In this document: positions 18,414 through 46,855 of the stretch, piece after piece
Numbering within the stretch: the stretch's first letter is position 1
Layout: the number at the start of each line of letters is the position of its first letter
Origin: Gammaproteobacteria bacterium
Lineage (GTDB): Bacteria > Pseudomonadota > Gammaproteobacteria > Ga0077554 > Ga007554
NCBI GenBank assembly: GCA_040183005.1
Contig: JAMPIW010000007.1
Location: forward strand, 496,001 to 560,000
DNA length: 64,000 nt
Direction of reading: 5' to 3'
Notes under the pieces: generated by a model
The model's database searches: none
The model's input: only the letters and a program-made list of their open reading frames with translations
What the model was told of the DNA's origin: nothing
Position numbers and translations under genes: made by a program

Positions 18414-18427
18414 TTGATCTAGATCAA
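18414..18427 (+). promoter_or_regulatory. FNR/ANR-type box upstream of the PilZ-por operon
   Basis: TTGATCTAGATCAA is a perfect TTGAT-N4-ATCAA site. Its centre (18420.5) lies 41-42 bp before a plausible start point near 18462, with TTTACT/TACTAG at about 18450-18457 as -10. That is the class II activator geometry, predicting anaerobic induction of the genes from 18497 onward. Confidence 0.65.
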
Positions 18428-18496
18428 GAAATGTTTCATCAGGATTTGGTTTACTAGAGCCTAGGAGATATCTGTTAATTTAAGAAGGGGAGTGCT

Positions 18497-18793
18497 ATGG
18501 AACATCGTTGCAATCGGCGTCAACCATTGGCGGGTGATGTGGTGCTTTATCATGGCGAGCAGTCTTTTCCCCTGTGCAAGGTTCGAAACGTCAGTTCGGG
18601 GGGCATGCTCCTGGAAATGCCGATGGGGATTCTTCCCCAGGGTGTGCTGGTGGATGTGATTCACAATGTGCCGGGCGAGGGGCGGCGGCGGTTGCGGGCG
18701 CAGGTGGTACACAGGACGGGACGGCATGTGGGGTTAATGTTCCTGAATGATAACGCTGGCACTTCAATTATGAATGTGGCGGCGGTCGCTTGA
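18497..18793 (+). CDS. PilZ-domain protein
   Basis: A 98-residue single-domain PilZ protein. The two c-di-GMP-binding elements are present: an RxxxR at the N-terminus (HRCNRRQP) and NVSSGGM, the (D/N)xSxxG motif. The remainder is a beta-barrel with VHRTGRHVGLMF. It is probably a cytoplasmic c-di-GMP receptor. AAGGGGAG precedes the ATG. It is first in the rightward set that continues with the YHS protein and porGAB, and lies 70 bp after the FNR-type box, so anaerobic control is likely. Why a c-di-GMP receptor heads a keto-acid oxidoreductase operon is unknown. Confidence 0.85.
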   Translation: MEHRCNRRQPLAGDVVLYHGEQSFPLCKVRNVSSGGMLLEMPMGILPQGVLVDVIHNVPGEGRRRLRAQVVHRTGRHVGLMFLNDNAGTSIMNVAAVA

Positions 18794-42032: not shown

Positions 42033-43433
42033 ATGGTAAGAAATAAAGTCACCGGAAAACGTCTTTTTGTGTTGGACACCAACGTCCTGATGCACGATCC
42101 CTCAGCACTCTTCCGCTTTCAGGAGCACGATATTTTTCTGCCCATGATGGTGTTGGAAGAGCTTGATAACAACAAACGCGGCCCCTCTGAAGTGGCAAGA
42201 AATGCCCGCCAGGCCAGCCGTTTCATGGAAGAATTAATGCGTGGTGGTTTGGAGCAAGGTATGGAGGCGGGCCTCAAGCTGCCTACCTCCGTTAACGCCA
42301 GCTTCGAAAGCGGGCGCCTGTTTTTTCAAACCCAGATTTTGTCGCACGACCTACCGCCCAGCCTGCCGGGCAACAAGCCGGACAACACCATACTCGAAAC
42401 CGTTTTGGCGCTCCAGGACAAGCACACCGACGCGACAGTTATCCTTGTTTCCAAAGATATCAATCTGCGCATCAAGGCCGCAGCGCTGGGCATCCCGGCC
42501 GAGGATTATCAAAACGACCAGGTGCTCGATGACCTCACCTTGCTGTATAAAGGCCAGGTTGAGATCGAACCGGAATTCTGGGACCGGCACAGCAAGGAGC
42601 TGACCTCCTGGAAGGAAGAGGGACGTACCTTTTACCGGATTTCCGGGCCGGACATCGCGCAGTGGTATCCCAACCAATTGGTGCATGACGGTGCACAGAA
42701 TGGTTTTGAAGGCATCGTGCGCAGCATTGAGCACGACACTGCTACTGTCGAGATCTGCATCAACTACCGCAGTGCGCACCACGCCGTATGGGGCATCAAC
42801 GCGCGCAATCGCGAACAGAACTTTGCCCTCAACTTGCTGATGGACCCGGCGATTGATTTTGTCAGCCTTTTAGGTAACGCCGGTACGGGTAAAACGTTGT
42901 TGACGCTGGCGGCGGGCCTTGCCCAGGTGCTCGATGAGCGCCGTTATCAGGAGATCATCATGACTCGCGCCACCGTGCCAATGGGCGAGGATATCGGTTT
43001 TCTGCCGGGCACAGAAGAGGAAAAGATGGTGCCCTGGATGGGCGCGTTAATGGATAACCTGGAAGTGCTCTCCAGCGCCGATGGCGGTGAATGGGGCCGC
43101 GCCGCGACCAACGATCTGCTGCGTCACCGCATCAAGATTCATTCCCTGAACTTCATGCGTGGCCGCACCTTCCTGAAAAAATACGTCATTATCGACGAGG
43201 CGCAAAATTTGACATCCAAGCAGATGAAAAGCCTCATCACACGTGCCGGCCCCGGCACTAAAATTGTGTGCATGGGCAACGTCGCACAAATTGACACGCC
43301 GTATCTCACCGAGACTACGTCGGGCATTACCTACGTTGTAGACCGCTTCAAGGACTGGGCTCATGGCGGGCACATCACCCTTAAGAGCGGAGAACGCTCA
43401 CGCCTGGCCGATCACGCGGCGGAGATTTTGTGA
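42033..43433 (+). CDS. PIN domain-PhoH ATPase fusion (YlaK/PhoH2-like)
   Basis: A 466-residue protein. The N-terminal PIN domain (FVLDTNVLMHDP, VLEELDNNKRG, VSKDINLRIKA) has conserved acidic residues for Mg-dependent RNA cleavage. After an OB-like linker, the C-terminal PhoH ATPase has Walker A GNAGTGKT (about 285), RATVPMGEDIGFLPGTEEEKM, and Walker B IIDEAQNLTSKQMK. PIN-PhoH proteins act as RNA helicase-nucleases. AAGGGGC precedes the ATG. It is a single-gene unit followed by a strong hairpin. Confidence 0.93.
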   Translation: MVRNKVTGKRLFVLDTNVLMHDPSALFRFQEHDIFLPMMVLEELDNNKRGPSEVARNARQASRFMEELMRGGLEQGMEAGLKLPTSVNASFESGRLFFQTQILSHDLPPSLPGNKPDNTILETVLALQDKHTDATVILVSKDINLRIKAAALGIPAEDYQNDQVLDDLTLLYKGQVEIEPEFWDRHSKELTSWKEEGRTFYRISGPDIAQWYPNQLVHDGAQNGFEGIVRSIEHDTATVEICINYRSAHHAVWGINARNREQNFALNLLMDPAIDFVSLLGNAGTGKTLLTLAAGLAQVLDERRYQEIIMTRATVPMGEDIGFLPGTEEEKMVPWMGALMDNLEVLSSADGGEWGRAATNDLLRHRIKIHSLNFMRGRTFLKKYVIIDEAQNLTSKQMKSLITRAGPGTKIVCMGNVAQIDTPYLTETTSGITYVVDRFKDWAHGGHITLKSGERSRLADHAAEIL

Positions 43434-43510: not shown

Positions 43511-43963
43511 TTATTTAATGATCTTCCAAGCGCCATCCGGCTGGCGACAAGCGGTGCCAAAGACGTCTTCCTGCTTGCCTCCTACATTGGCCTTCATAGT
43601 GAATTCGCGGCATGGACTCTGCTCGACGTCATACGTGCGGGTAGGAGTAATTGTATAGGTGCTACCCGTGTCAGGGTTGCGCCAAGTGGATTGCTGCCCG
43701 GTCCTGTTTTGCTCCAATACCTGTGCCGTTCGAATGCGATCATGTTCGTCCATGTGCTGTCCCACGTGAGTGCCTATCATGGCACCGGCCATGGTTCCAA
43801 GAATAATGGCGGCGATGCGTCCACCGCCCTCACCAACAGTGGAGCCCACGGCAGCCCCGATGGCTCCACCGACGAGGCCTCCTGCCTGCTCTTGGGTGGC
43901 GCATCCACTAGCTAGGATCACAACGAGTGTCCCGGCCGATATCATAGTCGTTAACCTATTCAT
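43511..43963 (-). CDS. glycine-zipper outer-membrane lipoprotein (17-kDa antigen-like)
   Basis: A 150-residue lipoprotein. Lipobox LASGC at about residues 17-21. The mature N-terminus has a Gly-zipper double helix (GGLVGGAIGAAVGSTVGEGGGRIAAIILGTMAGAMIGTHVG) of the Rickettsia 17-kDa antigen/SlyB type. The C-terminal 75 residues form the surface-antigen domain (YTITPTRTYDVEQSPCREFTM, ACRQPDGAWKII). It is located in the outer membrane; function unknown. GGAGGT precedes the ATG. A possible FNR-controlled promoter lies about 230 bp upstream (listed). Confidence 0.85.
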   Translation of the reverse strand: MNRLTTMISAGTLVVILASGCATQEQAGGLVGGAIGAAVGSTVGEGGGRIAAIILGTMAGAMIGTHVGQHMDEHDRIRTAQVLEQNRTGQQSTWRNPDTGSTYTITPTRTYDVEQSPCREFTMKANVGGKQEDVFGTACRQPDGAWKIIK

Positions 43964-44362
43964 ATCGTTACCTCCGTGTCATGAAAAATATAATGTATCT
44001 CCCTTTGAACCCTCATATATCCAGCAGTACAGGCACGAGAAAATATGTCTGATTTGAGTTGTTGGTTTCTTATTTTTCATTTTCTTAACTTGGCCATTCC
44101 ACATGCTGCCCCACCAAGAGTGCAGTCCAAGGTTTGAGTCTGGTAATCTTGGCGTTCAGCCGTGACTCGACAGACCTGTCTCACAAGTTTAGGGCAACTC
44201 TAGCACGCAATGGACAATATTCCTTTGATCTAGATCAAATAAGTCTCAAGTGCTCACAAAAACAGAAGTCATCCGATAACTATCTGTTTTCGCATAGGTG
44301 ATCCTGCTCCGGCTTTTCGAACACCTTGCTAGCAGATAATCTCTAACCGGATAGGCTGCCGG
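43964..44362. other. 399-bp gap with a long leader
   Basis: It holds the promoter and leader of the leftward glycine-zipper gene, with an FNR-type box at 44225. A minus-strand frame of 42 residues (about 44104 to 43979) has no good ribosome site and no recognisable features. I do not call it. Confidence 0.5.
44197..44238 (-). promoter_or_regulatory. FNR/ANR-type box with -10 at class II spacing
   Basis: TTGATCTAGATCAA (44225-44238) is identical to the box at 18414. On the minus strand, TAGAGT (44202-44197) gives a start point near 44190, placing the box centre at -41.5. This would drive the glycine-zipper lipoprotein gene. Confidence 0.55.
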
Positions 44363-46855
44363 TCAATAACTGTTCCGCAACACCTCCAAAGGTGGCTTCT
44401 GCAAGATGAACCGTGTGCCGAGTAGGCCTGCCAAGCCCACGCCCAACGTGCCACCTACGATCCCGGTTAGCCATATCCACGGATTCAGTGCGAACGGTAG
44501 ATGAAACACATGGGTAGCCAATAGATATCCCAGCAGTGTGGCGGCGGTGGAGGCTACCAGTCCGGCGAGCAGGCCGAGCACGGCGAATTCTGAAAATAGC
44601 CCTGTCAGTAATTGTCCTCGCCGCGCGCCGAGGGTGCGCAGGATGGCGCTTTCGTGGATGCGTTCATCCAGCGTGGCCTGGATGGCGGCATATAACACCA
44701 GCAGACCCGCCATAACGGTAAACAGGAACACGTATTCCACGGCAAGGCTGACGCGCTCCATGATCAGGCGCACCTGGGCCATGATCGCGGCCACGTCGAT
44801 CACGGTGACGTTGGGAAACGCCTTGACCAGCTTATTCATCAGGTCCGGTTTGTTCTGCGGCACATAGAGACTGGTGATGTAGCTGGCGGGATAACCGTCG
44901 AGTGCGCCGGGTGGTGCCATCACAAAGAAATTGGCGCGCATCGAATCCCATTCCACCTTGCGCAGGCTGGTGACCTTGGCAGTGAACTCTTCTCCGCCGA
45001 TCAAATAGCGCAGCGTGTCGCCGAGGTTAATCCCCAGCGTTTTGGCAAGCCCTTCTTCCACTGATAAGAAACGTTTGCCGTAATCTTTGGCACTCCACCA
45101 GTGCCCGGCAACGAGCTGGTTGTCGGACTGCATGTGTGCGCCCCAGGACAGGTTGAATTCGCGCGATACCAGACGTTGCGCGTGTTCGTCGGTATACGTG
45201 TTCGCGGATATCGCTTTATCATTGATGCCGATGAGGCGTGCGCGGATCATGGGAAACAGCATGGGTTCAGTGCCGTTCTCTCGCGCCAAAAAGGTGTGTA
45301 TGGCAGGCACTTGATCAGGCTGGATATTAATAAGGAAGCGGTTCGGTGCATCGGCAGGCAGGCTCTTCTGCCAGTCCTTGAGCAAGTCGCCGCGCACCAG
45401 GGTGAGTAGCAGCAATGCCATGATGCCAATGCCGAAACCCAGGATTTGCACTACGCTGCCCTGTGCGCGGCGCGTGATGTTGGCGATGCCGAAGCGCCAC
45501 GCCACACCGGCACGGCGGCGCAACAGGCGCAGTGCATTGATCAACGCCAAGGCGAATACGGTGAGCACTAGCAGTGCGGCAGCGGTTCCTCCCAGTACGT
45601 AAGCGCCGAGTTTAAGGTCTCCAGCCTGCCATAGCATGAGTGCCGCCAGCGCCATTACTCCAAATCCATAGGCAGCAAGGCTGCTTGCCGGGGGGGCACC
45701 AATGTCGCGCCGCAATACACGGAGCGGTGGCACACGCTTGAGATGCAGCAGCGGTGGCAGGGCAAAGCCGGTGAGGGTAATCATGCCGGTGAGCACGCCG
45801 AATACCACAGGCTGCAATGAGGGCGGCGGTAGTTCGGCGGTCACCATTGTCCCCAGCACCTGTGCCAGCACACCCTGTGCCGCATAGCCCAGCATGCAGC
45901 CGGCCAGGCTGGCGGCCAGTCCCAGAAAAAGAATCTGGTATACGTAAATGCGTGTGATGTCCGCCTGCACCGCCCCCAGGCAGCGCATCATGGCGCAATT
46001 ATCGAGATGGCGTGTCATGAAGCGGCGCGTGGCAATGGCTACGGCGACGCCCGCCAGCATCACGCTGACCAGCGCCGCCAGGCCGAGAAAGCTCTGCGCG
46101 CGGTTCAGCGCGGTACGCAGTTCGGGGCGGGCATCTTCCACGCCTTCGATGCGTTCGCCTGGTTTCAAATGTTTCGTGATTGCGGAGCGGTAGGCCGCAA
46201 TATTAATTGCCTCGCCCGCCACCAGCAGCCGGTAGCGGATGCGGCTGGCAGGCTGCACCAGTTGGGTGTTGGGCAGGTCGGCCAGATTGAGCATCAGGCG
46301 CGGTGCGATGCTGAACAGATCACCGCCCCGTGCGGGTTCGCGGGTAAGCACCGCCGCGATAGTGAGCTGCGCCTCACCCACACTGATACGGTCGCCGACC
46401 GCAATAGCGAGCGGGGCAAGCAGTCCTGCGTCCAGCCATACCGTGCCCGGCTGGGGGATGCCGGAGGCGGGTGCGTCGGGCATAAAGCGCTGCGGCGCGA
46501 TGTGCAGTTTCCCCCGCAATGGATAGCCATCGCTCACCGCCTTGATTTCCGCCAGATGGGTTTTTTCGCCCGCGACTACCATGCTGGGGAAATCCAGTGT
46601 TTCGGCGCTGCGTAGATTATTCTGATGCGCGATTGAACGCAGCTCATTTGCCAGCGGGTGATCCGAGGCGATCAACAGATCCGCACCCAGCAGGTCGTTA
46701 GCCTGACGGTGCAGCGCCTGGTCGATGCGGTCTGTGAAAAACCCCACAGCCGTGACGCTGGTAACAGCGACGATGAGCGCCAGCGCCAGCGCACGCAGCT
46801 CGCCGGCGCGCCAGTCACGCCGCAGCATGCGCATGGCCAGCGCGAGTGTGTTCAT
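44363..46855 (-). CDS. ybbP: FtsX-family ABC permease (YbbP-like)
   Basis: An 830-residue inner-membrane protein of the MacB/FtsX permease superfamily in the long YbbP form. There is one N-terminal helix, a large periplasmic domain, a cluster of helices in the middle (about 255-480) and three C-terminal helices after a second periplasmic domain. The C-terminal block has ESAILRTLGARRGQLLTGLFSEFAVLGLLAG, typical for these mechanotransmission permeases. With the ATPase gene, which overlaps by 4 nt, and divergent tesA it matches the conserved E. coli ybbA-ybbP-tesA neighbourhood. The complex is thought to move hydrophobic compounds or lipoproteins, but its substrate is not established. Confidence 0.9.
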   Translation of the reverse strand: MNTLALAMRMLRRDWRAGELRALALALIVAVTSVTAVGFFTDRIDQALHRQANDLLGADLLIASDHPLANELRSIAHQNNLRSAETLDFPSMVVAGEKTHLAEIKAVSDGYPLRGKLHIAPQRFMPDAPASGIPQPGTVWLDAGLLAPLAIAVGDRISVGEAQLTIAAVLTREPARGGDLFSIAPRLMLNLADLPNTQLVQPASRIRYRLLVAGEAINIAAYRSAITKHLKPGERIEGVEDARPELRTALNRAQSFLGLAALVSVMLAGVAVAIATRRFMTRHLDNCAMMRCLGAVQADITRIYVYQILFLGLAASLAGCMLGYAAQGVLAQVLGTMVTAELPPPSLQPVVFGVLTGMITLTGFALPPLLHLKRVPPLRVLRRDIGAPPASSLAAYGFGVMALAALMLWQAGDLKLGAYVLGGTAAALLVLTVFALALINALRLLRRRAGVAWRFGIANITRRAQGSVVQILGFGIGIMALLLLTLVRGDLLKDWQKSLPADAPNRFLINIQPDQVPAIHTFLARENGTEPMLFPMIRARLIGINDKAISANTYTDEHAQRLVSREFNLSWGAHMQSDNQLVAGHWWSAKDYGKRFLSVEEGLAKTLGINLGDTLRYLIGGEEFTAKVTSLRKVEWDSMRANFFVMAPPGALDGYPASYITSLYVPQNKPDLMNKLVKAFPNVTVIDVAAIMAQVRLIMERVSLAVEYVFLFTVMAGLLVLYAAIQATLDERIHESAILRTLGARRGQLLTGLFSEFAVLGLLAGLVASTAATLLGYLLATHVFHLPFALNPWIWLTGIVGGTLGVGLAGLLGTRFILQKPPLEVLRNSY

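Follow-up and report, generated by a model that had tools for sequence, protein, structure and literature searches.

The perfect palindrome TTGATCTAGATCAA, located at positions 44225-44238 of the window (the whole stretch of 64,000 nucleotides analysed here), is judged with a probability of about 0.87 to be a binding site for the FNR protein of the same genome at a class II promoter. The gene downstream of it encodes a glycine-zipper lipoprotein which, by analogy with described FNR promoters, is very probably switched on at low oxygen. Established directly are the box, its spacing, an FNR homologue in the genome, a genome-wide spacing signal and the recurrence of the layout at some homologous genes. 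Read from these sequence features, the predicted promoter is real and belongs to the ordinary class II promoters of the FNR type. It is a new instance of an established mechanism, and the mechanism itself is not new, since the FF site, a class II reporter that carries it and a class II site at -42 have all been published.

Organization of the lipoprotein promoter

The box lies in a 399-bp gap (43964-44362), which follows an FtsX-type permease gene (44363-46855, minus strand) and leads up to the lipoprotein gene (43511-43963, minus strand). Because both flanking genes read toward lower coordinates, the lipoprotein gene alone has its start at this gap; the gene after it is PhoH-like and on the plus strand (42033-43433). 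Along the minus strand, the order is the box, 22 nt, the predicted -10 element TAGAGT (44202-44197), the predicted transcription start at 44190, a leader of 227 nt (43964-44190) and the ATG at 43963. The start was placed from the spacing between box and -10 element, and the box is centred at -41.5 from it. The 14-mer agrees exactly with the palindrome TTGATNNNNATCAA that defines an FNR box, an assignment that draws on the pattern match, genome counts and spacing statistics, and the site at -41.5, together with a -10 element spaced to match it, gives the predicted promoter a class II layout. TAGAGT agrees with TATAAT at 4 of 6 positions and is a poor -10 element; TACAAT stands at the equal spacing in the homologous loci L036 and L037.

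The initial annotation had placed the box 41.5 bp from a predicted start with TAGAGT as the -10 element, followed by an unusually long leader of about 225 nt, and the 22-nt gap and the 227 nt counted from the predicted start agree with this description. The identical 14-mer is indeed present twice in the window, at 44225-44238 and 18414-18427. Class II geometry, which had been claimed at both copies, is found at the lipoprotein box and is weaker at 18414-18427, where TTTACT stands at the 22-nt gap, a weak -10 element that matches at 4 of 6 positions and has no A at position 2. A PilZ-domain gene (from 18497) lies behind this second box, its predicted leader being about 35 nt long, and the region 18414-18790 aligns with a boxed locus in the related genome G001 (L086).

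The lipoprotein gene encodes 150 amino acids, with GGAGG upstream and a single start codon in frame. Its product scores over the cut-offs of PF16998 and PF13488 and below that of PF05433. By eye a lipobox-like ASGC can be seen, and the glycine zipper is accompanied by the C-terminal domain of the 17 kDa surface antigen (17kDa_Anti_2), which together place the protein among the 17 kDa surface antigen/glycine-zipper lipoproteins.

The FNR protein and the proposed mechanism

Four matches to the Crp-type helix-turn-helix (PF13545) exist in the genome. One of them, L031, passes the NCBIfam Fnr model NF008365 with 244.6 bits against a cut-off of 228, and it is the sole match to itself in its own genome at E 1e-20. 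A solved FNR has cysteines at the positions aligned with cysteines 41, 44, 50 and 143 of L031, and in E. coli FNR these are the cluster residues. L031 is thus a Crp/Fnr-type protein that has both the four cluster cysteines and an E..SR helix. The recognition helix IETISR aligns with VETISR of the solved FNR, and passages of PMC4505428 describe the E..SR residues of E. coli FNR as DNA contacts.

In the proposed mechanism, FNR carrying a [4Fe-4S] cluster would dimerise at low oxygen, and the dimer would occupy the palindrome, whose centre at -41.5 would make it overlap the -35 position. The bound protein would then bring RNA polymerase to TAGAGT, the poor -10 element, and in this way turn on the glycine-zipper lipoprotein. 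Oxygen-dependent activation, the exact start and any envelope role at low oxygen are presumed here from the FNR family. A lipoprotein family with a poorly defined role would in this way gain a likely low-oxygen inducer.

Comparison with known systems

TTGATCTAGATCAA is the FF site, which passages of PMC4505428 describe in the class II reporter FF-41.5. This model class II FNR-dependent promoter, used in E. coli and P. putida, contains the identical 14-mer and is named for its site at -41.5 (PMC4505428, in the same passages). It differs in being a lacZ reporter, whereas the site in the window belongs to a natural promoter with the poor -10 element TAGAGT before a lipoprotein gene, which would make the latter a natural example of the FF-41.5 design. 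Similarly, the fnr1 promoter of Herbaspirillum seropedicae has an FNR site at -42 that passages of PMC5934665 term class II; its target gene is another one, and its start was mapped, whereas that in the window is predicted. The predicted EtrA site of ccoN in Shewanella oneidensis includes the same 14-mer, according to passages of PMC3078092. However, ccoN is a respiratory oxidase gene whose level is up in the etrA mutant, so that it provides no example of activation (PMC3078092, same passages). A glycine-zipper or 17 kDa lipoprotein under FNR or ANR control did not appear among the matches listed in the literature, which consist of titles and abstract openings, and one may be printed elsewhere; nor did one appear in the passages of PMC5934665, PMC3078092 and PMC3759415.

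Abundance and spacing of boxes across genomes

The genome comprises 3,327,238 bases in 9 contigs. Nine copies of the exact TTGATCTAGATCAA were found in it, against 0.006-0.016 expected, and two in the window, against 0.0001-0.0003 expected, where the expectations come from Markov models of order 1-4 trained on the window. The box is not a chance occurrence. The wider pattern TTGATNNNNATCAA has 31 sites in the genome, 21 of them with an NTAN spacer, and its reversed control has 0, although this control is weak because it runs through TAG-rich words. The related palindrome TTGACNNNNGTCAA occurs 4 times, as does its reversed control, which indicates that this variant is not enriched.

For the spacing analysis, all gaps of 5-49 nt beyond the box end were searched for TANNNT, each box being read in both orientations (8-44 nt in the first scan of the window's own genome). 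In that genome, TANNNT stands at gap 22 in 9 of 41 oriented boxes with NTAN spacers, while other gaps have a mean of 0.81 and a maximum of 3; gaps 21 and 23, with 4 and 1 occurrences, were excluded from this mean together with gap 22. Boxes with non-NTAN spacers have it in 1 of 20. With any spacer the figure is 10 of 61, derived from the 31 sites, one orientation being cut by a contig end. The FNR-bearing relatives G001, G002, G003 and G005, represented by 36 NTAN sites, have TANNNT at gap 22 in 25 of 72 oriented boxes, against a mean of 1.07 and a maximum of 4 at other gaps. Many of the relatives' boxes are orthologous to each other and to those of the window genome; therefore, the gap-22 counts are not independent trials.

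In three other family members, G004, G006 and G007 (97, 94 and 85% complete), FNR was not found at E 1e-20, and gap 22 is occupied in 1 of 74 cases (mean 0.83, maximum 3). This set consists of 37 of the 38 boxes with any spacer, one at a contig end being omitted and only three having NTAN. The two sets of relatives were thus chosen by different spacer rules, and the like-for-like figure for the window genome is 10 of 61. The number of NTAN boxes TTGATNTANATCAA follows the same division: 21, 12, 5, 10 and 9 in the window genome (G000), G001, G002, G003 and G005, and 3, 0 and 0 in G004, G006 and G007. Beyond the family, box number is less tightly tied to FNR, as G051 has FNR and 2 boxes, and G023 has 3 boxes with no FNR found. 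The 22-nt spacing rule suggests that FNR regulons of poorly studied gammaproteobacteria can be read from their genomes.

Recurrence upstream of homologous lipoprotein genes

A scan of upstream sequences (up to 400 bases) covered 41 homologues, namely L035-L049 (15), L065 and L151-L175 (25), of which L065 and L152 are apparently the same sequence; the weaker loci L050-L064 and further matches without a locus lay outside it. A box with at most one mismatch precedes 10 of the 41. When a -10 element is also sought at gap 22 (at least 4 of 6 matches, with A at position 2 and T at position 6), 5 remain: the window copy and those in G001, G005, G189 and G132. Their -10 elements are TACAAT in both G005 (box TTGATATAGATCAA) and G001 (box TTGATGTAGATCAA), TATTAT in G189 and TAGAAT in G132, the last two behind boxes with one mismatch. 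In 200 runs with simulated upstream sequences, such arrangements numbered 0.05 on average and never exceeded 1, and the homologue loci in full (about 132 kb, both strands) contain 5 altogether. The absence of the arrangement from 36 of the 41 homologues counts against a general rule. An FNR-like protein was matched on sequence similarity (E 1e-20) in 22 of 25 genomes checked, and only G189 and G132 among these have both box and -10 element. G365 has a perfect box, with neither a -10 element at gap 22 nor an FNR-like match at E 1e-20. The 319 upstream bases of L065, the nearest named relative (a Gammaproteobacteria MAG, 58% identity), contain no box, L066 having been left out. G003, from the same genus, and G002 (78% complete) both have FNR and lack a close lipoprotein homologue.

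Between G001 and the window genome, identity is 92% for FNR and 61% for the lipoprotein. In a quick tree of 37 homologues with several weakly supported nodes, the window copy stands apart from the G001/G005 pair, and its upstream DNA has no match in G001 or G005. The diverged lipoprotein, separate tree position and unmatched upstream DNA imply that the layout was either inherited with different copies or arose more than once. It is tentatively suggested, at somewhat less than even odds, that this outer-membrane lipoprotein family came under FNR control on several occasions in Gammaproteobacteria. The basis is that the window copy and that of the same-genus G001 fall in different parts of the tree and have unlike leaders, yet share the box, the 22-nt gap and the -10 element; the G189 and G132 copies have the same layout with one box mismatch. 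If this is true, the glycine-zipper envelope lipoprotein would be a component of the low-oxygen stress response that has recurred without being recognised, and it would join the Hsp20, Hsp70, BON-domain and DksA-like proteins boxed in the same genome.

Alternative explanations for the box and the leader

A functionless chance match would be consistent with the poor -10 element and with the loose pattern, which is not enriched within the window when one mismatch is allowed (3 occurrences against 1.81 expected, with 28 of 100 shuffles reaching 3, which is not unusual). The exact 14-mer counts, the gap-22 spacing, the genomes without detected FNR and the recurrence at homologues make this reading extremely improbable. 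The box could also be real and be read by a paralogue such as L032, a Crp/Fnr family member that may sense nitric oxide or redox instead of oxygen. Besides the four PF13545 matches, this would agree with the helix REVVSRLL of L032, in which E..SR can likewise be seen by eye, and full-length L032 homologues accompany FNR in G000, G001, G003 and G005, so that the two regulators are not separated in the family. However, the N-terminal cysteine cluster is absent from L032. Nor was L032 found (E 1e-15) in G189, G132 and G049, all three with an FNR-like protein, and in G189 and G132 the lipoprotein nevertheless has a box and, at gap 22, a -10 element. Moreover, a partial match to L032 (residues 3-94, one internal stop) occurs in G004, which has few NTAN boxes and in which no FNR was found. 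Control by the paralogue is thus regarded as unlikely. The original proposal of an FNR-type box at class II spacing is well supported by the genome spacing statistics, the FNR gene, the comparison with genomes in which no FNR was detected and the recurrence at some homologues.

The leader was also considered as a functional element driven by FNR, be it a small RNA or riboregulator or an upstream ORF with a regulatory role, in view of its length and of a 41-codon open frame (43979-44104, minus strand) that ends 15 nt before the lipoprotein start. The evidence goes largely the other way, and such a role appears quite improbable. At gathering scores, no Rfam family matched anywhere in the window, and neither a terminator-like site nor a minus-strand sigma-70-type site was found in 43900-44400. 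Folding of 43940-44190 gave an MFE of -49.1, weaker than the shuffled mean of -54.0 (z +1.23). Compared with 20 genomes, the gap 43964-44362 matched nothing but itself and a single 25-base stretch of its own genome, with no match in the 19 others. The homologous promoters in G005 and G001, with box centres at -103 and -104, predict leaders of about 60 nt; therefore, the long leader looks peculiar to the window copy. A small RNA, riboswitch or structured leader was rejected on these grounds of family, fold, terminator and conservation, and the suggestion in the initial annotation that the leader could hold a small RNA or regulatory structure gained no support. Most likely, the 227 nt are simply untranslated sequence that is particular to the copy in this genome.

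Other boxed genes in the genome

Boxes also lie upstream of, among others, genes for two Hsp20 proteins, Hsp70, a BON-domain protein and a DksA-type zinc finger protein, and further ones precede those for a di-haem cytochrome c peroxidase, a small cytochrome c, fructose-bisphosphatase, a DsbH-type thioredoxin and a PilZ protein. A regulon for low oxygen and stress would be expected to contain genes of these kinds. Of the 31 boxes, several sit within long reading frames, and these are probably not regulatory.

Three boxes within about 4.5 kb flank the DksA-type, DUF2934, Hsp20 and Hsp70 genes at L016 and L017 (G000:C7:420203-428671), which likely form a compact low-oxygen stress cluster. Identity of 80-86% extends over 100-116 bp around the boxes of L013 and L014 (BON protein, Hsp20) and of L010 and L016 (DUF6763, DksA-type), and the latter pair has a further 85-bp stretch at 95%; it looks as if duplication had spread the boxed promoters. 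In addition, a boxed segment about 120 bp long exists twice, 86% identical (L024:1974-2092 and L026:1915-2029), one copy before a PEP-CTERM protein gene and the other without a clear gene close downstream. It is possibly a copied boxed module with its own transcript. Rfam gave no match for it as a small RNA, the one match being a tRNA elsewhere in L026, and no terminator-like site was found in L026:1500-2300, the terminator scan having covered the L026 copy. Additionally, the FNR-type boxes TTGATATACATCAA and TTGATCCAGATCAA at L021 and L022 precede two subtilisin-like (Peptidase_S8) genes.
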